Part shown: in pieces, positions 1 to 13,343 of the stretch
How positions within the stretch are numbered: position 1 is the first letter of the stretch
Layout: the number at the start of each line of letters is the position of its first letter
NCBI RefSeq assembly: GCF_009208075.1
Contig: NZ_WFKJ01000016.1
Span: 1 to 52,391, forward strand
DNA length: 52,391 nt
Reading direction: 5' to 3'
DNA from: Poseidonibacter ostreae
GTDB lineage: Bacteria > Campylobacterota > Campylobacteria > Campylobacterales > Arcobacteraceae
Position numbers and translations under genes: made by a program
Notes under the pieces: model-generated
What the model was told of the DNA's origin: nothing
The model's database searches: none
The model's input: only the letters and a program-made list of their open reading frames with translations

Positions 1-326
1 TACAGCTTATAGAACTTTTTACAGTCACTTGTAAATAACCCCTTCTTTACTATTGATATACTGAAGTTTTATGAATATTCAAGGAGTGCGAAATAGCCAA
101 TTAAATTTCTTAATTCAACATTAACATAAGGGGCTATTATGAGAATACATTCTTTCTTATAGTTTCTGTAAAATGAATGTTTAAACCTATTATTTTAAAT
201 AAGTTAATGTTTTAATTAAAAAATCAATTCTTTTTAGACACGACTTTTGGCATTGTTATAAACTATCATCCTCTAATAAAAAATTAGATACTATTATATT
301 AATAAATAGTAATGGAGTAGTATTTA
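1..326. other. Left-edge stretch without a gene; upstream region of the DUF262 gene
   Basis: No convincing reading frame is visible on either strand. The sequence is AT-rich and holds the ribosome-binding GGAG (314-317) that serves the DUF262 gene starting at 327. The island that interrupts comM must continue to the left of base 1, because the second half of comM is not in the window. Confidence 0.5.
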
Positions 327-1955
327 ATGGCATTATCATTAAAAGCTGATGAACAAACAATAAGTAAAGTATTTGGTGAAAGAAAACAATATATAATTCC
401 TCCCTATCAAAGACCATATTCTTGGAAAGAAGATCAATGTACTGAATTATTTTTTGATTTAAAAGAATCATTTGAAGACTTTACTAATCAAAATAAAGAT
501 GATGGGTATTTTCTAGGGAATATAGTTATTGCTTCAAGTAAAGAAGATAAAAATAAATTAGAGGTAATTGATGGTCAACAAAGATTAACTACATTAACAT
601 TATTAATGAGAGCATTAACTTTTTTTGACAAAACTAATAAAAAGTTGAGAAATGCAATATGGGAATTAGATGATAGAACTGATCAACCTAAAGAGCAAAG
701 ATTAGCAACAACTGTATTTGAAGATAAAGACTCTGTATTTTTACAAGAAGCTTTAACTCTTAATTTAGAAGATGAATCTATACAAATTAAGAAGAAAGAT
801 AATCAATATAAAAAAAATATTGTTTTCTTTTTTCAAGAATTGAAATGCTTTGATGAAGAATCTATTCAAGAATTTGTAGATTTTTTACTTTATGAAGTAT
901 CTTTATTACCTATTCAAACTGAGGGTGTAAGTAAAGATATTGCGAGAGAAAATGCACTAAGAATTTTTGAAACAATTAATGATAGAGGGTTACCTTTATC
1001 TGATTCAGATATATTTAAAGCAAAACTTTTTTCAATGGCTTTAGATGATAAAAAAGATGAACAATTTATTAAAGAATGGAAAGAATTAGATGAAGAATGT
1101 GAAAGTATAAAGTATTCAATTGATGAAGTTTTTAAAATTTATACACATATTATTAGAGGACAAGAAGAACGTACCAGTCCTGAGGTTAAATTAAGATATT
1201 TTTTTACTAGAGAAAGAATTTCTCCTTTTAATAAAAAAAAATATAGTGAAATATTAGAAGATATTTTTTTTATTATTGAATCAGTTAAGCTATTTAAAGA
1301 TGTAATTCAAAAACCTAATGAATATGGAGAATTAACTAAATGGTTTCAGTTAATAGATGAATACAGTAACCAGTACCCTACATTAGCATTATTTGTTTAT
1401 TTATATAATAATAGAGATTTAGAATATAAGAAAATAATAGATTTTTGTAAGAGTTTAGTTCGATATTCTTACTATCTTGGTTCAAGTAGCAAAATCCAGT
1501 TTTATATATATTCTTTAATTGTTAAAATCTCAAATGATGAATTAGTTCCTTATTACCCACCTGATGTTAAAGAAAGTGACTTTGATTATTTCGGTAGATT
1601 GAAAAATGGATATGCATTACTTTCTTTATATTTAGACGAAAAACAAAATGCAATTTTTCCTTATGTCTTTGATAAGATTATAAATTCAAGAGATGAAGTG
1701 AATTTAGATGAAAGTTGGAAAGACAAAGATTTTAGTAATTACACAAATACATTAGGAAATATTTTGGTTCTAGATATTCCAAAGAAACATAATATATTGT
1801 CAAAGAAGATAAAGTTTCTTGAAAAATCTAAGATTAATCAAATGAAAGAATTAACATTTAAATTAAATGAGTGGTCATATCTAGAGTTTGATATAAGAAA
1901 TAAAGAACTATTGAATAGAATTATTTCATTTTTTAAGAGACCTAATGAGAATTAA
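327..1955 (+). CDS. DUF262 (GmrS/ParB-like) domain protein, likely defence nuclease subunit
   Basis: 542 residues. The N-terminal DUF262 fold is clear: the YQRPYSW motif near residue 28, the DGQQR motif near residue 84 that marks this ParB-like nucleotide-hydrolysing domain, and INDRGLPLSDSD near residue 217. The C-terminus resembles DUF1524 (the GNILVL pattern near residue 481 followed by spaced Asn/Lys), but the His that normally opens that HNH-like nuclease motif is not visible, so the nuclease half may be inactive or diverged. GGAG lies 9 nt before the ATG. The gene overlaps the following ATPase gene by 11 bp, so the two are very likely translated together and form one complex. DUF262 proteins occur in GmrSD-type (type IV) restriction, SspE and similar anti-phage proteins; a defensive role is inferred. 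Confidence 0.8.
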   Translation: MALSLKADEQTISKVFGERKQYIIPPYQRPYSWKEDQCTELFFDLKESFEDFTNQNKDDGYFLGNIVIASSKEDKNKLEVIDGQQRLTTLTLLMRALTFFDKTNKKLRNAIWELDDRTDQPKEQRLATTVFEDKDSVFLQEALTLNLEDESIQIKKKDNQYKKNIVFFFQELKCFDEESIQEFVDFLLYEVSLLPIQTEGVSKDIARENALRIFETINDRGLPLSDSDIFKAKLFSMALDDKKDEQFIKEWKELDEECESIKYSIDEVFKIYTHIIRGQEERTSPEVKLRYFFTRERISPFNKKKYSEILEDIFFIIESVKLFKDVIQKPNEYGELTKWFQLIDEYSNQYPTLALFVYLYNNRDLEYKKIIDFCKSLVRYSYYLGSSSKIQFYIYSLIVKISNDELVPYYPPDVKESDFDYFGRLKNGYALLSLYLDEKQNAIFPYVFDKIINSRDEVNLDESWKDKDFSNYTNTLGNILVLDIPKKHNILSKKIKFLEKSKINQMKELTFKLNEWSYLEFDIRNKELLNRIISFFKRPNEN

Positions 1956-3459
1956 TCATTTAACTATTAAAAATATTAAATTTCATAAAAATCTTGATAT
2001 TAACTTTTCTAAGAATAACTGCTTGATTTATGGAGAAAATGGTACAGGAAAAAGTTCTATTTATTCTGCATTATATTCAATTTTTAAAATTTACTTTAGA
2101 AATGAAAACTTTAATTTTAGTAAATATAAAAATAATTCTACAGATGAAGATATTTATATAAAAGTTAATTTAGATAATGAAGAACTATTTTTACCAAATA
2201 GTAATTATAATCTACCTGATTCTATTGATAGAGATAATTATAAAACTATATATTTTGCTAATCAAGAGTTATTAGAATCAATTATTTCACATTCTGAAAA
2301 TTTTTATATTAATTTATATGATAATTTAAAAAAGTATTCTAGTGATTTAAGAAGCTATTGTGAAAAATTTGATGAAATTAACGATACTATAACTTCTGAA
2401 AACTATTCAACACATAATGAATTGAGGAAGGAAAATATTGAATCCTTTAAAGAATATTTAACTCACATAAAAAGTTTATCTAATAGTATTATAAAGGATA
2501 ATTTGAAAGAAAATTTTGAGATAGACTTTGAATATGAATGGGGTATTTCTGATACATTAAATGATTATAAATATCCAACACCAGAAGTAAAACTAAGAAT
2601 TGATAATATGGATAACTTAAAAACTAATTTTAATGAAGCAAAATTAAAACTTGTGTCTATATCAATTTATTTTGCAATAATTATGTTTCAAGAAGAGGAT
2701 AGTAACTCTATTAAATTACTAGTGTTAGATGATTTTTTGACAAGTTTAGATATGGCAAATAGAAAATATATTATGGAATATATATTTGAAAATTTTTCGA
2801 ATTACCAAAAAATTATATTAACTCATAACTTACAATTTTATAATTTAATTATTAGATCTTTAAAAAATAGAAAAGAATATGATACTGATTGGGAAATCAA
2901 AAATATATTTATAAGTAATTATTTGTCGCCTCTTGAAAGTAAAATAGTAAGTAAAGATGAAAACTATATTATTAAAGCAGAGGTGAAGCTTTTAGAGGGT
3001 GAATATCATATTTGTGGAAATTATCTAAGAAAAGAATTTGAGCGTATAACAAGTGAGTTTGAACAAAAGTTAGAACTTGGTAAAGCTTCAGAATTACAAG
3101 TTATAATTGATTCAATTAAATCAAGTGAGGATGGTTACTATTATATAAAACCATATGAATATTTTAAATGTTTAAAAAAACTTTTTAAAGACTTTAAAGA
3201 AGTTATAAATAATGGAGATAGTGATCCTATAAAAGTTAGTAAATGTCGAACTTTAATGGGAGGTTTTTCACAAACCCTAATTGACTATGAAAGAGAATTG
3301 GAAAAATTGAAAGAAGTTATAAATAAAATAGAATTTTACAAAAATATAGCTTTTAATCCATCTTCTCACAGTGATGAAGAAATAGAATTTTATAGAAAAG
3401 AGCTTGAAGATAGTAAAGCATTACTAATTTCATTAAATGAAATATTTGATTCAATTTAA
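1945..3459 (+). CDS. RecF/SMC-like AAA ATPase partnered with DUF262 protein
   Basis: 504 residues. The start is like RecF-type ATPases, with Walker A GENGTGKSS near residues 31-39. An ABC/SMC-like Walker B, LLVLDDFLTSLD, lies near residue 258 and is followed by an H-loop His (LTHNLQFYNL). The insert between Walker A and B is only about 215 residues, too short for a long SMC coiled coil. About 190 residues follow the ATPase core and are rich in Lys, Glu and Leu; no TOPRIM or HNH motif is visible there. The ATG sits inside the end of the DUF262 gene (11-bp overlap). The pair looks like a self-contained two-gene unit: an ATPase sensor or motor plus a DUF262 effector. Which known defence type it matches, if any, I cannot say. 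Confidence 0.8.
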   Translation: MRINHLTIKNIKFHKNLDINFSKNNCLIYGENGTGKSSIYSALYSIFKIYFRNENFNFSKYKNNSTDEDIYIKVNLDNEELFLPNSNYNLPDSIDRDNYKTIYFANQELLESIISHSENFYINLYDNLKKYSSDLRSYCEKFDEINDTITSENYSTHNELRKENIESFKEYLTHIKSLSNSIIKDNLKENFEIDFEYEWGISDTLNDYKYPTPEVKLRIDNMDNLKTNFNEAKLKLVSISIYFAIIMFQEEDSNSIKLLVLDDFLTSLDMANRKYIMEYIFENFSNYQKIILTHNLQFYNLIIRSLKNRKEYDTDWEIKNIFISNYLSPLESKIVSKDENYIIKAEVKLLEGEYHICGNYLRKEFERITSEFEQKLELGKASELQVIIDSIKSSEDGYYYIKPYEYFKCLKKLFKDFKEVINNGDSDPIKVSKCRTLMGGFSQTLIDYERELEKLKEVINKIEFYKNIAFNPSSHSDEEIEFYRKELEDSKALLISLNEIFDSI

Positions 3460-3621
3460 TATATAAAGTTTTAAAATCATTTTTTAATTTCAATAATTTT
3501 CTTTTGATTGATACTAGTCATCTTTTCTATAGCTTTAATATTTTATATATTATTAAAAATATCTTCTAAGTATAGATACTGTTTTTTTTTATTGATATTT
3601 TCATCTATTTTTTCTTTCATT

Positions 3622-3715
3622 TTATTTGTGAAACATATTATTAGTTTTTTCAAACCTTACAGGAGATAAATTTCCAAGATAACTATGCAATGTTTCTTAT
3701 AAACTAGAGAATTAC
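3622..3715 (-). pseudogene. IS3-family transposase (OrfB) C-terminal remnant
   Basis: On the minus strand the sequence reads TLHSYLGNLSPVRFEKTNN then MFHK and a stop (3622-3624). This is the characteristic end of IS3-family OrfB integrases. Just upstream the similarity continues in another frame (NSLVYKK), so the remnant is frameshifted. Nothing of the catalytic DDE core is left nearby. Confidence 0.75.
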
Positions 3716-3772
3716 TAATCAATCAACAATCTCTTATATTTAGAACATATTCAGCTATTACTAGTTTTCGGT

Positions 3773-3836
3773 GTTCCACAAAGTGTTCAAAAAGTAAAAA
3801 CTACAAAGTTCCACAAACTTTAAGAGATTATGGAAC
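3773..3836. repeat. 64-bp repeat, copy 1 (inverted partner at 47067-47130)
   Basis: The stretch begins GTTCCA and ends TGGAAC. It matches the reverse complement of 47067-47130 over the whole 64 bp without gaps, with roughly eight or nine differences. It contains AGTGTTCAAAA, which also occurs, inverted, in the terminal sequence near 4706-4716. It may therefore be the end of the degraded IS256-like element, or an independent short mobile repeat. Confidence 0.75.
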
Positions 3837-3855
3837 AAAAAATTAGTTTTTAAAT

Positions 3856-4667
3856 TCATATAATTAAAGCTTCCTCCCATTTCCCTTCAAAAAAGATGGC
3901 CAATTAGAAAGTGATTAACATCGATTAAAAATAGGCATTGATAACTTTTTACTTGCATCTTAATTTTTCCATTTTTTGTAAAGTAAGATAAGGATAGGTA
4001 GTGTAGTAGTAATTTGTTAAAGAGTAGGTGTTAATTTGTGTTATAGGGATATCATTCTAATTGGGTGTAGTATGGAAAAAAGATGTTGAAAGCACTTATA
4101 TTCATATTAGAAATAATACTAATAATAGTTAAAATTGCCTTACTCTTTGTAGATTAATCTATTAAGAGAAGGCTACTGTGATTCAAGATTATGTTTACGG
4201 TTGAGTATTGGTGACACAATACGCTAGTTGGGAAAGATTCCCTAGAAATATTCTTGCTTTTTTAATTTTAATCTTTTAATAATTCAATCTTGATTAAGTA
4301 GATATTAGGAATTTACATCTTTAATATAAAACCTACCTTACAGTATATTGAGTTCTAAGAGCTTTACATTTATATCTTCTAATACTTTTTCCTGATTTTG
4401 AAGTAGTATTAATACTACAACTGTATAGCTATTAGTACTGATACTACTACCCTAAATAGGACATAGAATAAAAAAGTCTTTGAAGATTTACTATTTTTAC
4501 GATTACTAATCTCTGTAGATAAATGAGATTCAAGTTCAGCTTCGAGAACTGCTTCCCTAAGTTGTTTAATCAGTGGAGCAAGTACTCCTTTTTGCCATCA
4601 ATTCCTTGCACCTTATTTTATGAGTTCAAGTGCCTCGTACATATTGAATTGTTGTTTGATAAGTCAT
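3856..4667 (-). pseudogene. Degraded IS256-family (mutator-type) transposase
   Basis: The minus strand reads KGVLAPLIKQLREAVLEAEL and on through ESHLSTEISNRK around 4490-4590, the hallmark N-terminal segment of IS256-family transposases. An ATG with AAAGGA before it sits at 4667, but the frame shifts soon after it, and two stops interrupt the segment ARN-stop-WQKG. The C-terminal signature LAIFFEGKWEEALI is found at about 3859-3910. An intact gene needs about 1.2 kb; only about 0.8 kb remains and the middle is unrecognisable, so the element is dead. Confidence 0.8.
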
Positions 4668-4692
4668 TCCTTTAGAATTTAATATTCTATCA

Positions 4693-4716
4693 GTTTGACA
4701 CAAAATTTTGAACACT
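4693..4716 (-). repeat. Probable terminal inverted repeat of the IS256-like remnant
   Basis: Read on the minus strand this is AGTGTTCAAAATTTTGTGTC followed by AAAC, lying just outside the transposase start. The first 11 bases (AGTGTTCAAAA) recur in opposite orientation at 3782-3792, beyond the transposase C-terminus. That arrangement fits the two ends of one insertion sequence. Confidence 0.55.
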
Positions 4717-4727
4717 CCCGAAACTAC

Positions 4728-4988
4728 TTATTTTATAATGATTTCTGTAAAGAACTCATTTAAATCAACCTCTAATACATTAGCAATTTTTACTAAATGC
4801 TCAATATTAAAATGTTTATTTTGAAGGCAAAGTTCAGAATTTGATATAACTCCTACTGCTTTATGACCAATTAACAATGCTAAACTTAACTGGCTTATTT
4901 TATTTTCTTCCCTAATTCTTTTTACATTTTTTCCTATTCTTTTATAAATTTCTTTCATTTGTTCATCTGATATTGTGCAATTTTCCAT
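4728..4988 (-). CDS. XRE-family helix-turn-helix regulator
   Basis: 86 residues from the ATG at 4988. A second ATG at 4997 has an AGG only 1 nt away, whereas the AGG is about 10 nt from 4988, so the shorter form is preferred. The body has the Cro/CI-type fold: IGKNVKRIREENKISQLSLA (first two helices), then LCLQNKHFNIEHLVKIANVL and a DLNEFF ending. It is a small DNA-binding regulator without a sensor domain. It is transcribed away from the 195-aa gene at 5069, and the 80-bp gap between them is the likely shared operator region, so it probably represses itself and that neighbour. Confidence 0.8.
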   Translation of the reverse strand: MENCTISDEQMKEIYKRIGKNVKRIREENKISQLSLALLIGHKAVGVISNSELCLQNKHFNIEHLVKIANVLEVDLNEFFTEIIIK

Positions 4989-5068
4989 TTTATACATACC
5001 TATCGTTAGTTTAATCTAAGTATATTTTTAATAGAATAACTTATCAACTATCTATGGTTAGGTGTAAA

Positions 5069-5656
5069 ATGCAAATTGAACGTTTAGAAGAAAGAAAAGA
5101 AACCTTAAAAGAGGTAAAAAGAAAATTAACTCAAGTAATTTTACCTCAAATAAAAAGTAATACTAAGGCTCATTTTGGAATTAGAAACTTTCGAAATGAA
5201 TTAACTAATGAAATATATACGCTTGAGTCAAATATAAAGATATTACTTAATCAACCAGATAAATATATGAATCTAAAAATTAGTAATAGTATAATGAAAA
5301 AGATAATTGATTTAAACAATACGATACCAAGTATGACTCTTCTAGTTTTTCTAGAATTTATTCTAGACTTATCTAAGGATTTATTATTTTCAGAATTGTT
5401 AACTGAAATTGCTAATATCGAAATAAATGAAAAAACTGAACTGCTTTTAAATCAAACAGATTTTTATGTTTGTAAAAAGAAAGATGAAAAAGAAGATAAA
5501 GTGATTGTTTATAAGATAGATGATTTAATTGTTTTTGAAGATGGAAAACATCTTAATTTAGAACATTTCGAACACTACAGCTTCAATAATTATAATTTTC
5601 TTTTTTCCTCTAAGTATACTTTACTAGATATAAAAAAATTTAAAAATATTTGGTAA
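5069..5656 (+). CDS. Hypothetical protein, divergent from the XRE regulator
   Basis: 195 residues from the ATG at 5069, which has an AGG 7 nt upstream; an in-frame ATG at 5054 has none. The N-terminal third is helical and charged (RLEERKETLKEVKRKLTQVI), the middle is hydrophobic (MTLLVFLEFILDLSKDLLF), and the end is a short beta-rich segment (VYKIDDLIVFEDGKHLNLEH). I do not recognise a family. A second, degraded copy of the last 48 residues follows at 5725-5868, which shows that the 3' end was duplicated. The place beside an XRE regulator inside a mobile island suggests a small cargo unit (toxin-antitoxin or defence), but nothing in the sequence proves it. Confidence 0.6.
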   Translation: MQIERLEERKETLKEVKRKLTQVILPQIKSNTKAHFGIRNFRNELTNEIYTLESNIKILLNQPDKYMNLKISNSIMKKIIDLNNTIPSMTLLVFLEFILDLSKDLLFSELLTEIANIEINEKTELLLNQTDFYVCKKKDEKEDKVIVYKIDDLIVFEDGKHLNLEHFEHYSFNNYNFLFSSKYTLLDIKKFKNIW

Positions 5657-5724
5657 CACTATTTTTAATTAAAGAATCATTAATATAGTTTCAAAATAAT
5701 ATCTTTACTATCTAATTTTCTCTA

Positions 5725-5868
5725 GTATATAAAATTGATGATTTAATTATTAAGAATGGAATAAAATATTTAGATTTAAGTAGATTTATTGATTATTCTT
5801 TTAATAATATAAATTGTATATTATCAGATAAATATACATTAAAAAAAATTTGGTACTTTAATTCATAA
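5725..5868 (+). pseudogene. Duplicated 3' fragment of the 195-aa hypothetical gene
   Basis: The frame reads VYKIDDLIIKNGIKYLDLSR and on to FIDYSFNNINCILSDKYTL before TAA. It lines up with the C-terminus of the neighbouring protein (VYKIDDLIVFEDGKHLNLEH, then YSFNN and SSKYTL). No start codon or ribosome site precedes it. It is best read as a diverged tandem copy of a 3' end, left by recombination between related cassettes. Confidence 0.75.
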
Positions 5869-5885
5869 ATATTTTGATTCCTTTA

Positions 5886-8800
5886 TTACTTCAGTAGTTT
5901 AATTACTTTTGATGATAATGTTGATTCATTTACATAAGTGATAAAAGTATTTATTATTTTTTCCTTATCCATTAGGTTATTGTAGAAAACATCTTTAGGA
6001 ATCTCATCTAATAAAATTAGTTCTAATATTTTTTTATAAACTTCCTCAATTGCAAATTTAGTGTCAAGATTTTTTTCATCATTTTTCTTTGAACTCTTAT
6101 ATATCTCCAATTGTGCATTATAAAATGGAATATGGTCATATTTGATTAGTGAGAAATTATTAATCGCAGGTAGGTTGTTATTCTTATGCTCATCCTCTTG
6201 TATATAACTATAAATTATATTATTAAATAATTCTATTATTCTAGTATATCCATAGTTTTGAGCTAATAGTAAGTTAAGCTCTTCCTCATATAGAACTGCT
6301 TCATTGTGATTTAAGTTCTCGTTGATTAAATTGTCTTCTATTATTCTATAATATTCGGTGATTCTTGTTGATAACTGCATTATCTTTGAATTAATTGAAT
6401 CAATAAAAATAGGACCTGTTATAAAATAAGGGCAAATAGAACAACAATTGATTAATGATTCTGGGCAGTTTAGTGCACTTGTGCATATTCCAGTAGTAAG
6501 GTCTTGCCAGAAAATCGGAGATAATGTCGTTGATAGTATATCTTTATTCTTTTCTACATATTTTTTATTTTTAGATAAAATATAAGGAGAAAAAAAGAGG
6601 TCCTTTTTTTCTAAGATTTTTATTATTTTATTTTTATCCTCTAGATGGTATTTCCTTAAATTCTTCATTATGTCTCTTGCTGTAGACCTTGTATTATCAT
6701 CTTTTTGTCCAAATTTCTCTAATATATTTGTTTCCATATCTTCTCTAATTGATAATTTTGAAAGAAAATTAAAATCAATATATACCTGAAGAACTGTAGA
6801 ATGTCCGGTGTGTCCACTCAGTTTTAATATAAATTCAAATACTTTTCCTTGTTTCACTAAATATGTAATATTAGTCTTTCTGAGAGAATGAGGACCATAA
6901 TGTTCTGAGGAGAAATATTTTTTAATATTACCCAATGTTAAATTATCAATACTTTTAAACTCAAATAAATTATTCTTAAAATATTCTTTTCCACTATCTG
7001 TTAATTGAAGATAATAATTTATTTCTTCATTTGAGTAACCTAATTCAAATAATGCTTTAAGTAATACTTTATAATAATATCCTGTATATATTTCTATTGT
7101 AATAAAACCGATTGCACTATTTCTACAAAGGATTGGTTCAATCTTCCCCCAATTTGTATTTTCTTTTCTTAATAAAGGTTTTAATGATGGAAAACTATTT
7201 TTCGAATGGTCTATTGTTTCATTAAGTAATTCCATAACATCAATAGAATCATACTTATCATCTTCAAAATAGAAAACATTATCAATAAATTCTCTTTCTA
7301 TTTGAAAATCATTATCTTGATTTTTATCAGTAGTAATTTGCCAAGCTATAATATTATTTTTTTCATCTTTAACTAAAAAATTATTTCTATCCATTGATAT
7401 AATGTGCTCAGTTCTCCATGGTAGACATAAATGAGTAAATAACATTATTGGTAACTGAGGTTCCACAGTATCAAAATGTTTCCAGATTTTATTTTTTTGT
7501 TCAAAATTTGTTTTAATATAGTAGTTATCACGGGGAGGATTATATAAACATATTTTTTTCATTTGATGAATAATCCTTTTATCGAATGCTAATCTTGCTA
7601 TAGCTCTTTTTTTGGGTTTAAAATCAAGTTTTACTAGATGACTTTTTGGATATGAGCCAGCATATTTATCAGAACTCTCAATTACTTGAAAAACTATTAA
7701 TTGTAATTTTTGTTGAACTGATTTCCCTGAATTTGAATTTTTAAGATATTTTAAAAAACCTGAGTTTATTTCATTTTCAAAATTACTTCTATCTATGATT
7801 GATGTAGCAAAAAAAAACCTTAACTTTTCAAATGTTATTTCCTTCATAGTATTAGTAAGATATTGTAGAAAAAGAACTATTAGTTTAGTAAGCTTTATTT
7901 CTTGAGGGGAACTCTTTTTATTTGAAAAATATTTTGCAAATAAATCAAGTAAATATTCATCAACCTCAGTTGTTTTTGATAAAATTTCTAATGGAGTCAA
8001 TTTTATTTCATTTGCAAGTCGTTTCGTCTCATATATATTTAATGCTCCCTGCCATGACAATATTTTTCTTATTGGGTTTTCATTATCTTCAGTCATCTTA
8101 TTTGATTTAGTTGAGTTCTTTAGATTCAAAAAAACTTTTGAAATATCTGCATTTGTAATATTAATTAATTCATCATTATTTCCATTAACTAGGTAAGAAA
8201 ATCTTAAATAGAATATATATTTTGCTTTATTATTACTTTTAAGTTCATTATCTATCAAATGGCTTTGTTTAGGTTTAGTTAAAAAGAAATGTGTCTTTTG
8301 AAAGAATTCTAAAATTTTTAAATTAGTAGCATTAAAAAAAAATGCATCAGTAGAATAAATATAAATAGAAGGAATTAAGGCATATCCCTTTCCTGCAAGA
8401 AAAAGAAAGAAACACAAATACAATTTTTTTTGTGAATTTTCCTTTTTTATACTTTCATCTTTTGTAGAGATTAGTTCCAATATTAAAGTATAATCAATTG
8501 TTGTATCATTTAATTTAAAATCACTTTCTTTCAAGTCATAAAATGCAACTGATGAGCCATAATATTCTTTTTTGAAACTTTTCCAATTAATTAAAGCATT
8601 GTTTTTTTCTTTATTTAAAATTAAAATTGTATTGCTATAAGTATTTAAGGGAGGTAATTTATCTACATAATCAATTCTAAAGTTTTGTTTTCGTCCAGTT
8701 AAAAATTTATGTTTAGGTTTAATGCTCTTTTCTGATAATTCTTCATTAAAACAATCTTCCCATAGTTCTTTCATTGATGTGTCTGTTAGAATATTTTTAT

Positions 8801-8915
8801 CAATGTCTTTTTCTTTCAAATATTCAATGAACAGTTTGTTTTTTTTACTGATAATTAAATCTGAATAACCTAAGTTAGTAAGTTCATCTAAAATATCTTT
8901 TTTTTTATAACCCAA
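5886..8915 (-). CDS. Large tyrosine recombinase (GmtZ/TnpB-like), last gene of recombinase operon
   Basis: 1009 residues. The start is TTG at 8915, 8 nt after a strong GGAGAAG; the nearby ATG at 8920 is in another frame. The C-terminal half holds tyrosine-recombinase residues in order: Arg in LPWRTEHIISM (near residue 494), HxxR in GPHSLRKTN (near 675), His in LSGHTGHS (near 700) and Tyr in VYIDF. A cysteine cluster follows (GICTSALNCPESLINCCSIC, near 794), like the Cys-rich tail of Tn554-type TnpB. Large recombinases of this kind work with a second recombinase and a small protein in Tn554 (TnpA/B/C) and Gamma-Mobile-Trio (GmtY/X/Z) elements. Residues about 28-59 carry a FxEY...W..CF motif also seen at the end of the preceding protein. 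It overlaps that gene by 11 bp. Confidence 0.8.
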   Translation of the reverse strand: MGYKKKDILDELTNLGYSDLIISKKNKLFIEYLKEKDIDKNILTDTSMKELWEDCFNEELSEKSIKPKHKFLTGRKQNFRIDYVDKLPPLNTYSNTILILNKEKNNALINWKSFKKEYYGSSVAFYDLKESDFKLNDTTIDYTLILELISTKDESIKKENSQKKLYLCFFLFLAGKGYALIPSIYIYSTDAFFFNATNLKILEFFQKTHFFLTKPKQSHLIDNELKSNNKAKYIFYLRFSYLVNGNNDELINITNADISKVFLNLKNSTKSNKMTEDNENPIRKILSWQGALNIYETKRLANEIKLTPLEILSKTTEVDEYLLDLFAKYFSNKKSSPQEIKLTKLIVLFLQYLTNTMKEITFEKLRFFFATSIIDRSNFENEINSGFLKYLKNSNSGKSVQQKLQLIVFQVIESSDKYAGSYPKSHLVKLDFKPKKRAIARLAFDKRIIHQMKKICLYNPPRDNYYIKTNFEQKNKIWKHFDTVEPQLPIMLFTHLCLPWRTEHIISMDRNNFLVKDEKNNIIAWQITTDKNQDNDFQIEREFIDNVFYFEDDKYDSIDVMELLNETIDHSKNSFPSLKPLLRKENTNWGKIEPILCRNSAIGFITIEIYTGYYYKVLLKALFELGYSNEEINYYLQLTDSGKEYFKNNLFEFKSIDNLTLGNIKKYFSSEHYGPHSLRKTNITYLVKQGKVFEFILKLSGHTGHSTVLQVYIDFNFLSKLSIREDMETNILEKFGQKDDNTRSTARDIMKNLRKYHLEDKNKIIKILEKKDLFFSPYILSKNKKYVEKNKDILSTTLSPIFWQDLTTGICTSALNCPESLINCCSICPYFITGPIFIDSINSKIMQLSTRITEYYRIIEDNLINENLNHNEAVLYEEELNLLLAQNYGYTRIIELFNNIIYSYIQEDEHKNNNLPAINNFSLIKYDHIPFYNAQLEIYKSSKKNDEKNLDTKFAIEEVYKKILELILLDEIPKDVFYNNLMDKEKIINTFITYVNESTLSSKVIKLLK

Positions 8916-10293
8916 AACATCTTCTCCATTGTAAATTTAAATCATCGATATCATAATCATTTAAAATATAAATTTTATTTTTCCTGCAATATTCTGCAAA
9001 TATTATAAGAAACTCTTTTCTTGAATTTATAGACAAATTATCAATATCTTTAAGTTTTGGAACTTTCAATGATTTATCATTAGTAATAAATATATCAGAA
9101 TAATATTTCTTCATATACTTAACAATTAATAAAGCGTTCCCTTCTTTAATCTTTTGCATATACAATATTTGATAAATTTCAATAACTTGATTCTTTGATA
9201 TATTACTATCATGGTTTAATGAAATAAAATTACTATTACAATATTCTCTTATTTCAAGATACGTATTTTCATTATCTCCTATTTTATTTGCATTAAAAAA
9301 TTTCGAAAAATTATTACGTAAATCAAGTAATATATTTTGAGTTTGGTTAATATTAAAATATTTCTGATTGAAAATTTTATTTAATATAAAAAGTAGTTGG
9401 GAAATAATAGAATTATCATTAAATAAGATATTATTATCTATAATAAAATTAATTAACTTTATTCTATCCTCATAATTTAAATTATCAATCTCTTTCATTG
9501 CTTCAAGATGTATTGATGCATCTGTACTTGTTATCTTCTCATTAAACAGTATATTCCAATGTTCTACAATATAGGAGATATTGATTTTTTTATTATTAAA
9601 AATATCTTTCATCTTTCTATAATAAACTAATGTTTCTATTCTTTGTTTTTCAATTTTCTTTTTTAAAAAAATGTATCTCTTCATAAATTTAGATAAATCA
9701 ACTTCTTTATTATGAGGGTAGGAATAATTATGTAAATGATAGGAAGGGCTAGGGTAATATGCACCCACATATTTTTTAAATAATAAGAACCAATGATGAA
9801 TAATTATCCGTTTTGAGGATATTAAGTTTTTCTCTAAATAAATATTATTTAAAGCACAAAAGTAAGCTATTCTCTCATATTCGAATTCACATATAGCCTC
9901 TTCCTTATACCAAATAGAATTTGATTTAATGATTTTCATATAGTAATTTGCTTTAGTCATAGTTATTTTTTCTTCAAAATAATAATACCAAGAATCAATA
10001 AAATCTTTTTCTCCTTGAATTGATTCACAATGAAACTTTATATCATAAAAGTTACAATACATAATAAAAATTTTTTGTTTTCTTCTAACCAAAGTAGAAT
10101 TACTTATAAAAAAACTAACCTTTTTTTTTTGTAAAGACTTTAATATTAGTTCTAATAGTTCATTATTAGGCTTATTGTTATAATAAATTTCCCAAAATAT
10201 GGAAATCTGTTTTCGAGCTAAAGGTAAAGGACTAAATAAAATTCCTTCATCTTTACAAAATTTGATGAATTTATATATCAAAGAGTTTTCCAT
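8905..10293 (-). CDS. Repeat-containing protein of the recombinase operon, unknown function
   Basis: 462 residues, ATG at 10293. No catalytic motif is visible. The protein appears to be built from about six degenerate units of the form hydrophobic-x-x-(Y/F)C-x4-I...W-x3-F: residues about 6-38 (FIKFCKDEGI...IFWEIYY), 73-105 (IMYCNFYDI...SWYYYF), 142-172 (AYFCALNNI...HHWFLLF), around 240, 347-378 (REYCNSNFI), and 430-462 (IFAEYCRKNKI...LQWRRCF). The same unit opens the next protein. The gene overlaps both neighbours (16 bp and 11 bp), so it is co-translated with the recombinases. A helical, possibly DNA- or partner-binding scaffold is my inference. In the trio systems I know of there is no clear fourth gene of this kind. 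Confidence 0.7.
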   Translation of the reverse strand: MENSLIYKFIKFCKDEGILFSPLPLARKQISIFWEIYYNNKPNNELLELILKSLQKKKVSFFISNSTLVRRKQKIFIMYCNFYDIKFHCESIQGEKDFIDSWYYYFEEKITMTKANYYMKIIKSNSIWYKEEAICEFEYERIAYFCALNNIYLEKNLISSKRIIIHHWFLLFKKYVGAYYPSPSYHLHNYSYPHNKEVDLSKFMKRYIFLKKKIEKQRIETLVYYRKMKDIFNNKKINISYIVEHWNILFNEKITSTDASIHLEAMKEIDNLNYEDRIKLINFIIDNNILFNDNSIISQLLFILNKIFNQKYFNINQTQNILLDLRNNFSKFFNANKIGDNENTYLEIREYCNSNFISLNHDSNISKNQVIEIYQILYMQKIKEGNALLIVKYMKKYYSDIFITNDKSLKVPKLKDIDNLSINSRKEFLIIFAEYCRKNKIYILNDYDIDDLNLQWRRCFGL

Positions 10294-10889
10294 TCTTTTT
10301 CTGTAAATTCAAATCTATCATCTTCTTTCTGTGAATAAGACTTGATAATGACATTTTTTTCATTTTTATTTATGATTAGGGGACCTTTTTCTAATAATAC
10401 ATTAATAATTCCAATGATTTCAATAGATTTTTCTAAATCCATTTTATTCTCATTATGGTTAATGTTTTTAGTTTTAAAAAGTTTTTCTAACCTCTGTATT
10501 TCAAGTTTATTATCTAAATATAATTTCTCAAAAAGTTTTTTCTCATCTAATAGTTCTAAATAATCTTGTGTTATCATGTCAAATTTATCACGAAGATTAA
10601 ATTGATTCATTTCTTCAATGTTTTTAGGAGCTATTGTTTTTTTTGTTTGTTCTTTTTTAAATGTATCAACTATTAGTTTATATTTAGAATTACGCATAAT
10701 TGATTGTTCATCTACTAAATATTTATTTTCGATTTTTCTTTTTTTTGCTATCTTTACTATTTTTTCTTTAATTTTTAATGCAGTAATATTTTCTTTTTTA
10801 TTTATTAATAATCTACATGCTTCAGTTATTAAGTCAATTACAATTAATGTTCTTTTTTCTTGAAACTTTTTTACACCATCATTAGCCAT
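10278..10889 (-). CDS. Small helical accessory protein (GmtX/TnpC-like) of recombinase operon
   Basis: 203 residues from the ATG at 10889, with AAAGGA upstream; an in-frame TTG at 10904 is possible. The N-terminal half is a basic helical DNA-binding-like segment (KIKEKIVKIAKKRKIENKYL). The middle has a coiled-coil stretch (LLDEKKLFEKLYLDNKLEIQ). By size, position and composition it corresponds to the small third partner of Tn554-type (TnpC) or Gamma-Mobile-Trio (GmtX) recombinase operons. Sequence identity to either cannot be judged by eye. It overlaps the stop of the first recombinase by 8 bp. Confidence 0.65.
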   Translation of the reverse strand: MANDGVKKFQEKRTLIVIDLITEACRLLINKKENITALKIKEKIVKIAKKRKIENKYLVDEQSIMRNSKYKLIVDTFKKEQTKKTIAPKNIEEMNQFNLRDKFDMITQDYLELLDEKKLFEKLYLDNKLEIQRLEKLFKTKNINHNENKMDLEKSIEIIGIINVLLEKGPLIINKNEKNVIIKSYSQKEDDRFEFTEKEWKTL

Positions 10890-12333
10890 TTCTTTTCCTT
10901 TCAAAATAATTATTTACAAGTGAAAGTGAATTTATAAAATATTCTTCTAAATTAATTGACTTACCATTTGTTATTTTCTCCATATATAGTAATCTAGATT
11001 TTTTCCGTAGAGTGAAATAAGATAATATAGCACTTTCACTACTATGTCCTAATCCAAATTGACATAAACTTCTTAATTCCATTAATGATATTTCTAAACT
11101 AGTTGTTGATAAATCAGCCCACATAATTGCATACATATGTCTTAAGCTATGAAGTCCTCTAACTTTTTCTAGTTGACTTATAAGGTAATTATATTCATTG
11201 TCAATTTTTTCTTTTTCTTCACTTAATTTATTTTCTCTTTTATTTTTCCAATCATTTTCAGTTTTTATTATTAATTTTTTTATTTTTGTTTTGAATATTC
11301 TATATGATTCATTTGTTGTCAGAACTTTTCCACTTTTTGTATTGAATACAAAAGGATGTTTATTATGATATGGATTGCCTTTTTTGACATCTTTTAAAAC
11401 ATGAAAAAAAACTTTTTTATATGAAGGATTAATCCATAAAAGTTCACTATATTGTAGAGGAATGGGATATTTTGATGCAAGTGATTGGTATGGTTCTTCT
11501 TCCATATTAATATCATATTTTTCTTTTAACAGTTTAAATCTACTTACAGTACCTAATGGCCCAGTTTCATCAGATAATGGGTCAACAATATAAACTTCTT
11601 TAGTTTCATAATTATAATCGTCTCTTGTTAATGATAATGCTTGACCTATTCTAGCTCCTGCACATCCACATAGCAAATAAATTGCTTGTTCCCTAGGAGA
11701 ACTTATTTCTAATAACTCTGAGAATAATTCAGGAGGAAAATACGTATCAAGCATACTAGAATCTCTATTACTTTTTATATTTTTTAAAATATTAACTTTT
11801 GCTCCTAAAAGTTGAGAAAGGATAGGATTCATCATTAATCCATACCCTCCACCTTTACCTTTTAATGAACGCATTTTTAATAATTTCCAATCAATTTCTT
11901 CCTTAAATAAAGATGGTATATCCTTAATATTTTGTTCTTTCAAATAGTTTAAATACCATTGTATAGCTCTCATGTAAATATTTATTGTATTGATTTTTAA
12001 TGGTTTTAACTTCATAACTACATAATCATCTTTAACTATATCAATCTTATCTAATTTAATAGTTCTCTTTGTTCTAATGATTAATCCTAATCTTAAATCT
12101 TCTCTAAATCTATCTAGATACTCATATAATGATTCTAAAATATTTTGTTTTACATATACATAATAATGTAAAAATATATCTAAAGCTCTTCCATATATTT
12201 CTCTAGAATTTTTTGTTGTATTACATCTTCTTTTTAAATAAATCATCCATTTTTGAACATATTTATCTACCCACCATTCCCCCTCAATATTTATAGCGAC
12301 TTGATAGATCCCTGTTTCAATTTCATATTTCAT
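10882..12333 (-). CDS. Tyrosine recombinase (GmtY/TnpA-like), first gene of recombinase operon in comM
   Basis: 483 residues, ATG at 12333. It has an N-terminal SAM-like core-binding domain (residues about 19-140), then the catalytic domain: Arg in GCAGARIGQALSLTRDD (near residue 227), HxxR in RGLHSLRHMYA (near 414) and a final GLGHSSE...YF with His and Tyr (near 440-455). It catalyses cutting and rejoining at the element ends. The gene begins about 65 bp from the comM break and reads away from it, as expected for the integrase of an element inserted there. It heads a four-gene operon with overlapping reading frames. Confidence 0.85.
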   Translation of the reverse strand: MKYEIETGIYQVAINIEGEWWVDKYVQKWMIYLKRRCNTTKNSREIYGRALDIFLHYYVYVKQNILESLYEYLDRFREDLRLGLIIRTKRTIKLDKIDIVKDDYVVMKLKPLKINTINIYMRAIQWYLNYLKEQNIKDIPSLFKEEIDWKLLKMRSLKGKGGGYGLMMNPILSQLLGAKVNILKNIKSNRDSSMLDTYFPPELFSELLEISSPREQAIYLLCGCAGARIGQALSLTRDDYNYETKEVYIVDPLSDETGPLGTVSRFKLLKEKYDINMEEEPYQSLASKYPIPLQYSELLWINPSYKKVFFHVLKDVKKGNPYHNKHPFVFNTKSGKVLTTNESYRIFKTKIKKLIIKTENDWKNKRENKLSEEKEKIDNEYNYLISQLEKVRGLHSLRHMYAIMWADLSTTSLEISLMELRSLCQFGLGHSSESAILSYFTLRKKSRLLYMEKITNGKSINLEEYFINSLSLVNNYFERKRNG

Positions 12334-12368
12334 TTATTACTCATATGCTTTTATTCTATCTTATAAAA

Positions 12369-12426
12369 AAGTAAATTAGTATTGTATTAAATACATATTT
12401 ACTTAATACAATATATATTATTACTT
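12369..12426. repeat. Inverted repeat at the comM/element junction (probable attachment core)
   Basis: Arms at 12369-12390 and 12403-12426 are inverted copies. The inner 11 bp (TATTGTATTAA at 12380-12390 against TTAATACAATA at 12403-12413) are perfect, and the outer parts share AAGTAA plus an AT run. The right arm lies in comM coding sequence and the left arm in the element. Two inverted half-sites around a 12-bp spacer are what a tyrosine-recombinase crossover site looks like. Confidence 0.65.
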
Positions 12427-13343
12427 AAGGCAATTTCTCCAATTTTAGCATTCGCACTTCCTCCACCAAAAATAGATGACTTAGTAGAACTATGATGTGG
12501 ATTTCTAAAAACTCTTAAAGCTGAAAATTCTATGTTTTTATAATCTAAAGATTGTAATTTTGCTTTTTCTAATATCTCATCTAAACTCATTGGAGGAAGT
12601 ATATATCTTATTCTTTTAGAAATCATGCTCTTGCCACATCCAGGACTTCCTTCAAACATAAGGTTGTGATTTCCAGCTGCACAAATTAGTGCTGCAAACT
12701 TCGCATTATCTTGACCTATTACATCAGAAAAGTCATCGAAATAAGTATTTTCATAATAATATATCTTACTCTTAATTTCAATTTTTTTTGCATTTAATTC
12801 TTTAGAATGATATCTATACTTATCCTTACTCTCGTTATCCTCTTTACTAAAAAATTCAATTGCTTCACTTATATTCTTTACAATATAAATTTCTACATTT
12901 GGTATATTTGAAATCTTTTGTGCACTATCTTCACATACTAAGATTTTCATTTTTTCACTATTTTTTGCTAAAGATAAAACTAAAGGGAAGATTGTACTTG
13001 TATCCTTTATACTTCCATCAAGTCCAAGCTCTCCAAAGACAAAAAAACCAGAGAATACATCTTTTTTTATATCATATAAGGCAATTTGCAAAGCAATAGC
13101 TAAATCAAAATGAGTACCTTTTTTTTTAATATCAGAAGGAGATAGATTTACAGTAATTTTTAGTGGTGGAAACTTATAGTCATTCATTAGCAATGCAGAC
13201 TTTACTCTATCTTTTGATTCTTGAATGCTTGTTGATATTAAACCAACAATTGTAAAAGATGGCAAGCCTTTTGTAAAAGTTGATTCTACATTTATGCTTA
13301 ATGCATCAATTCCATCTAATGAAGCAGAATTTATAATTTTCAA
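12399..13343 (-). pseudogene. comM: comM (YifB, Mg-chelatase-like AAA ATPase), 5' portion interrupted by island
   Basis: 314 residues remain of a protein that is usually about 500. The N-terminal Lon-protease-like fold is intact (KGLPSFTIVGL, VNLSPSDIKKKGTHFDLAIA), as is Walker A (FEGSPGCGKSM, near residue 230) and the conserved FRNPHHSST. After GEIALSNN, where the family continues into the Walker B segment (usually xGVLFLDE), the frame runs into foreign sequence (IYCIK) and stops. ComM is a hexameric helicase for branch migration during natural transformation, so the break should abolish that role. TTG start at 13343 with AAGGA 5 nt upstream. The 3' half is not in the window. Confidence 0.9.

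Follow-up and report, generated by a model that had tools for sequence, protein, structure and literature searches.

The window analysed here is a contig of Poseidonibacter ostreae (Arcobacteraceae) at its full length of 52,391 nucleotides (RefSeq assembly GCF_009208075.1, contig NZ_WFKJ01000016.1), and it carries part of a mobile island that interrupts the gene comM. It is judged probable, at roughly three chances in four, that this island, which spans at least 19,092 bp, owes its mobility to a divergent Campylobacterota form of the Gamma-Mobile-Trio (GMT) machinery, comprising two tyrosine recombinases (Y and Z) and a small accessory protein (X), and that a 462-residue open reading frame (ORF 3) between X and Z encodes the N-terminal module array of Z and no independent fourth component. 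GMT islands are known from Gammaproteobacteria, where their load includes anti-phage and antibacterial genes. They reportedly encode the proteins GmtY, GmtX and GmtZ, as described by Mahata et al. in Nat Microbiol in 2024, and are known here through the NCBIfam models and through citing papers. The original prediction for this DNA had placed a four-gene recombinase operon in comM, likened its first, second and fourth genes to the GmtY/X/Z plan, and suggested that the third, encoding a repeat protein, could mark a separate four-component branch.

The island is divided between two contigs of the same genome (G000), namely C65, which is the window in its entirety, and C80. The two halves of comM were found on these contigs, with TIGR00368 positions 2-296 at C65 12417-13331 and positions 295-499 at C80:6677-7267, in agreement with the predicted location. 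The gene is uninterrupted across the insertion site in eight relatives of the genus, and the element itself was found in none of the congeners searched. From the split comM, the island therefore consists of C65:1-12416 and C80:1-6676, with a gap between them. Its ends, as recognised by local alignment, are imperfect inverted repeats of about 36 nt, the left repeat lying in the window (Table 1) and the matching one on C80, immediately within the island's right boundary at position 6676. On the Y side, comM continues through its own AATAAT into the island; at the far junction, it restarts as GGCATT after ACTCCT (C80 6677-6682), a hexamer that is foreign to comM. Intact comM in the eight genus relatives reads ..AGT AAT AAT GG. 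AT.. or a close variant, and the register of the spacers in the window is uncertain by +/-1 nt. Because the two junction spacers differ, a conventional phage-type integrase working on identical core repeats was ruled out.

When the flanks are joined by keeping the left 6 bp and dropping the right 6 bp, a gap-free comM is restored in all four of the islands reconstructed (the window, copy a of genome G263, G276 and G318). The 6-bp spacer rule of the strand-biased circularizing integrative elements (SE), which are compared below, thus holds in each of them, and G263 in addition displays a transfer of the spacer. Specifically, G263 possesses two copies of 13,739 bp at C1:1353311-1367049 and C1:2185523-2199261 (L029, L030, L070, L071), which are 99.98% identical over the first-aligned 12.3 kb and 100% identical over the last 1.45 kb. 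Copy a, in comM, has an attL of ..TCT-GATATC-TTCTAAGG and an attR of ..CTTAGAA-TTTGTG-AAAAAAAACGGT (spacers between hyphens); copy b, outside comM, is bounded by ..CTGA-ACTTCA-TTCTAAGG at attL and by ..CTTAGAA-GATATC-AAGACC at attR. The hexamer GATATC, which accounts for about 0.1% of the 6-mers in these G263 sequences, is comM's own at the attL of copy a and foreign to the target at the attR of copy b, and an intact homologue of target b (in G105) aligns gap-free at the junction once GATATC is dropped. From this placement and the G105 alignment, it follows that six comM bases from beside the Y-side end of copy a came to lie on the far side of copy b. The persistence of both copies agrees with copy-out transposition, without proving it.

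A mechanism consistent with these junctions can be proposed. Y and Z, helped by X, would join both ends of the island, and the 6 bp beside the Y-side end would be carried into a circular intermediate. Upon insertion, the target's own 6 bp would remain on the Y side, with the transported hexamer deposited at the far junction as a footprint. By this rule, the ACTCCT of the present island would trace back to the donor site that it had occupied before.

The candidate machinery is encoded on the minus strand by four ORFs with overlapping frames, all at the coordinates originally assigned to them according to the ORF list. The first and the fourth are tyrosine recombinases, again as predicted, with legible catalytic sets whose columns are invariant across 9-10 homologues: R228, H395-S-L-R398, H430 and Y439 in Y (nine homologues), and R501, H676-S-L-R679, H702 and Y712 in Z. 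A cysteine cluster in Z (C811/C817/C825/C828) is likewise invariant across homologues. Z starts at a TTG codon with GGAG 8 nt upstream, and its first ~75 residues form an N-terminal extension with one further repeat-like module. For X, the likely start codon is the ATG at 10889, preceded by a good Shine-Dalgarno site; this would correct the ORF start and give a protein of 203 residues. The four window proteins alone yielded nothing specific in NCBIfam, Pfam and PADLOC scans except a weak match to Phage_integrase, seen for Y and Z only and for neither ORF 3 nor X. Searches with Z and Y find divergent relatives at E values of about 1e-24 to 1e-52, beyond chance.

The P0004 search returned divergent relatives (23-31% identity) in nine of the 397 phylum genomes sampled and in five of 104 family genomes, the window's own included in both counts, and in no congener. 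The Y alignment, run against GTDB genomes, located 11 loci in Campylobacterota and 11 distant loci, mostly in Proteobacteria. The gene order is Y, X, Z in every Campylobacterota locus where all three are legible, and 14 distinct loci of the phylum have X next to Z or overlapping it. On the Sulfurospirillum plasmid pSulSP, a copy of IS21 sits between Y and X (L036 3824-6141). In G233 (L033:5888-10501, L116:4022-15891), Y is parted from X-Z by cargo that includes a gene for a 1928-residue NACHT/Cap4-like protein.

The relationship to GMT was gauged against a bona fide GMT locus (G583, L125), in which all three genes score above the NCBIfam cut-off and are ordered Y-Z-X. The Campylobacterota profiles match the true GmtZ at an E value of 2.4e-18, GmtY at 2.3e-6 and, weakly, GmtX at 7.6e-4, supporting the earlier suggestion that GMT-type machinery extends outside Gammaproteobacteria. 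Among the homologues, six of nine match the GmtY model NF040693 (best 9.7e-13, with the one fully scored falling below the 340-bit cut-off), and five of ten match the GmtZ model NF047926 (best 4.1e-15, with those fully scored falling below the 600-bit cut-off). The GmtX model NF040692 matched neither the element of G000 nor those of four relatives, nor any of ten X proteins. The characteristic order GmtY-GmtZ-GmtX is not seen either: the window and its relatives read Y-X-Z, as opposed to the Y-Z-X of L125. A further GMT feature, the mobile island with defence cargo, is present, as the comM island carries an HEC-06-like DUF262 gene, an SMC-like ATPase and Tmn. The likeness of ORFs 1, 2 and 4 to the GmtY/X/Z plan has thus been upheld as homology by profile and lost as gene order, and since the element fails both the GmtX model and the order, it is a GMT-type relative rather than GMT by current models. 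Judged from the profile matches and the Y-X-Z order, the window encodes, as far as sequence comparison can tell, GMT-type machinery of a divergent, differently ordered branch. Proteobacteria loci with a Z of ~1,100 residues are ordered Y-Z-X where X is recognised. Loci L057-L065, from Proteobacteria and Geomonas, are Y-Z-X operons with a Z of about 1,090-1,150 residues; the GmtZ model does not match Z in those scanned (L058, L059 and L065), and these operons are possibly a further, unnamed branch.

ORF 3 has no counterpart among these relatives. It matches no family in Pfam, NCBIfam or PADLOC, and no homologue was found in 60 relatives, 397 phylum genomes, phages, plasmids, viral contigs or the PDB, the search of the 397 genomes returning only noise at E > 0.002, mostly with internal stops. 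The idea of a separate four-component branch, for which the original prediction had named absence of the 462-residue protein from close relatives of the element as a refuting observation, is therefore not supported: the survey of Campylobacterota for the same four genes in the same order turned up Y-X-Z loci that lack this ORF, X and Z being adjacent in the 14 loci mentioned above. Nor does ORF 3 look like an extra component by position, for it occupies the exact place where sister elements have an N-terminal extension of Z.

It is most likely, on comparison with these elements, that ORF 3 is the N-terminal array of Z encoded separately, because no such gene exists in relatives, long Z extensions are limited to the window's subclade, Z appears to hold a module of its own, and the summed length fits. 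The Z extension measures 0-15 residues in ten loci; in the window's clade, it measures about 75 (the window), 76, 287, 295 and 515 residues, with one member having none. This clade is recovered in both trees, with support of 99/99 in the Y tree and 97 in the Z tree, the latter a quick tree with long branches. In G233, the extension of 515 residues includes six tandem, strongly alike 63-residue repeats, and that of L055 (Sulfurovum) contains internal repeats as well. ORF 3 and the Z extension of the window together amount to 537 residues (462+75), near the length in G233. The description of ORF 3 as a repeat protein stands with respect to structure, in that its pooled units are predicted to fold as a three-helix domain (pLDDT 82, against a low 34 for the whole of ORF 3 modelled from a single sequence), and is weak in sequence, with a best off-diagonal score of 71 for internal repeats against shuffled maxima averaging 52.7 (standard deviation 6.2), one of 40 shuffles reaching 72. 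When 495 native segments are ranked by domain score against a profile of the ORF 3 units, the N-terminus of the window's Z comes out on top; its whole score is reached by 17 of 1000 shuffles.

Several observations weigh against this interpretation of the trio and of ORF 3. The module scores are weak, and the unit borders were set by eye. Alignment of ORF 3 with the sister Z extensions by hhalign reveals no sequence similarity, so that the case for their equivalence is built on position, module size, clade and the one additional module in Z. The module's PDB matches are weak and of mixed kinds: the best is the ResT C-terminal domain (Z 4.3), with homeodomains (Z 3.0-3.4) and acyl carrier proteins also present, and for this reason a function was not read from them. 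The overlap with a Shine-Dalgarno site ahead of the TTG resembles that of separate, translationally coupled genes; the window's Y and Z alone have no NCBIfam GMT match; and the stretch between C65:1 and C80:1 is missing.

Some of these points would suit a true fourth subunit, in which ORF 3 would be a free tandem-module DNA-binding protein acting alongside X and Z, in choosing the target for instance. ORF 3 does possess its own ATG and stop, it overlaps X and Z like a gene of an ordinary coupled operon, its base composition and third-position GC (over 462 codons) resemble those of the other three genes, and the other Z extensions are without detected homology. Such a subunit is nevertheless unlikely, as it is present in no relative of the element, comparable module arrays are fused to Z in sister elements, and the Z N-terminus appears to hold another copy of the module.

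The boundary between ORF 3 and Z, an 11-nt stop/start overlap with a change of frame, bears on a different explanation, in which a single gene spans ORF 3 and Z and has been interrupted by a recent frameshift (a pseudogene) or by an error in the draft assembly. The frame changes within a homopolymer-rich stretch, TGTTTTGGGTTATAAAAAAAAAG, and the sum of 462 and 75 residues recalls the 515-residue extension in G233. A GGAG ideally spaced from the TTG fits a working start, however, and Y, X and Z are otherwise intact in an operon without another frame break, making a broken gene conceivable but not the expected outcome. Split genes, a programmed frameshift and a frame error may alike explain the break. 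With ORF 3 taken as the detached array of Z, the change of frame would have separated the two, and either coupling (GGAG, 8 nt, TTG) or frameshifting would account for translation of the downstream part.

The three-helix modules of ORF 3 are probably DNA-binding. A more far-reaching proposal is that, in this branch, the large recombinase picks its sites, many of them in comM, via variable three-helix DNA-binding arrays of about 1, 4 or 6-7 modules, with the window's array serving as a separate trans-acting targeting subunit; this is regarded as a long shot. Should it be true that the module arrays of Z read DNA, they would represent a new modular targeting device, which is speculation, and the separate array in the window would give a tyrosine-recombinase transposition machine whose targeting subunit is modular and split.

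The choice of comM is a recurrent one. Of 12 genomes selected because they carry the machinery, nine have a split comM, and the machinery lies at comM in eight (G000, G263, G276, G318, G397, G233, G330 and Sulfuricurvum G471), G330 having a degenerate Z on a contig with a piece of comM. The sites within the gene vary, falling at TIGR00368 positions 69 (three genomes), about 100, about 210 (two) and 296-300 (two). In G312, comM is broken by a different element of ~15 kb (C1:1410310-1425437; L115), and the Y-X-Z element of that genome lies elsewhere. ComM is a helicase that helps heterologous transforming DNA to recombine, and it has been proposed that mobile elements protect themselves by disrupting it (PMC4774983, PMC11472951). 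Insertion into comM in the present case probably lowers transformation with heterologous DNA, which would shield the island from removal.

The cargo of the island is likely defence-related, judging from similarity (Table 1). In addition to the two overlapping candidate genes in the window, a 1510-residue Tmn-type (YobI ATPase) anti-phage candidate is encoded at the far end of the island (C80, L004, 122-4654), where it adjoins an SNase gene. About 1.3 kb of the island in the window (3460-4727) is devoid of ORFs of at least 90 residues and is perhaps a decayed insertion sequence.

Table 1. Island, junction and gene features located in the window.
Feature	Coordinates	Strand	Basis or remark
Y, tyrosine recombinase, GmtY-like, 483 residues	10882..12333	-	Invariant catalytic residues; tree; relatives match NF040693
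X, small helical/coiled accessory protein, GmtX-like in size, 208 residues	10278..10904	-	X profile
ORF 3, 462 residues, about seven tandem ~70-residue three-helix modules	8905..10293	-	Putative separately encoded N-terminal array of Z
Z, large tyrosine recombinase, GmtZ-like, 1009 residues	5886..8915	-	Homologue alignment; profiles
Island portion	1..12416	.	comM halves and junctions; runs off contig edge, resumes at C80:1-6676
Left (Y-proximal) terminal imperfect inverted repeat, TATATTGTATTAAGTAAATATGTATTTAATACAATA	12380..12415	-	Local alignment of both ends
attL 6-bp spacer AATAAT, comM's own bases	12417..12422	-	Intact comM of 8 genus relatives; empty-site reconstruction
ORF with 5' part of disrupted comM/yifB	12399..13343	-	Pfam ChlI/Mg_chelatase; TIGR00368 2-296; comM codons end ...SNN, 12417
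DUF262/GmrSD_N protein, cargo, candidate defence	327..1955	+	Best PADLOC match HEC-06
SMC/RecF-like ATPase, cargo, candidate defence partner; overlaps DUF262 gene	1945..3459	+	Domain scans
HTH_3 (Cro/C1-type) regulator in island	4728..4997	-	Pfam HTH_3

Taken together, these data reveal a GMT-related, reordered machinery that is spread thinly in Campylobacterota (9/397 sampled genomes) and has struck comM repeatedly, a preference in keeping with the view that mobile elements disable natural transformation to escape removal (PMC4774983, PMC11472951). Genome G263 provides a natural record of a jump, with the six bases of the donor site preserved at the new site, and this footprint ties GMT-type machinery to the transposition rule of SE and Tn554 elements, rendering the mechanism directly testable.

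Among known systems, the SE elements SE-6283 and SE-6945 (PMC10214605, PMC9345347), which carry the genes IntA-Tfp-IntB-Srap, share with the island a 6-bp target spacer that stays at the IntA/Y-side junction with the donor spacer at the far junction, imperfect inverted repeats, and few selected target sites. The four-gene size class and the large second recombinase are also held in common, and membership of the SE or GInt class would account for these similarities. It is very improbable all the same, and SE membership was ruled out by direct comparison with both pSEA1 elements: only IntA is clearly homologous, to Y (hhalign 92.7%), IntB, Srap and Tfp are without convincing homology, and the gene order is unlike. 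No similarity to Tfp and no convincing similarity to Srap was found in ORF 3, X, Y or Z, ORF 3 being unlike Tfp, and it is because the tfp-srap block is missing that SE membership fails. The spacer-footprint rule has been noted for Tn554 as well; compared by description, Tn554 differs in its three genes (TnpA/TnpB/TnpC) and is reported mainly from Staphylococcus and Enterococcus. The GInts (GinABCD; PMC5385486) and RIT elements resemble the present element in that their operons encode several proteins of tyrosine-recombinase type with an established or presumed role in moving islands, and differ, again by description, in having three recombinase-like proteins versus the two recognised here. 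Other comM-targeting elements, including AbaR in Acinetobacter and integrase elements (PMC4774983; PMC11472951), also inactivate comM by insertion; AbaR is Tn7-like, whereas a GMT-type trio occurs here at several comM positions in Campylobacterota. Finally, GMT itself shares homologous Y and Z recombinases, a similar small X and an island with candidate defence cargo, and differs in that the window has the order Y-X-Z, scores far below the NCBIfam cut-offs, a longer Z, N-terminal module arrays within its clade, and Campylobacterota hosts. Read from its junctions and its gene content, the island behaves like an SE/Tn554 element as regards the junctions and is nearest to GMT by its genes.

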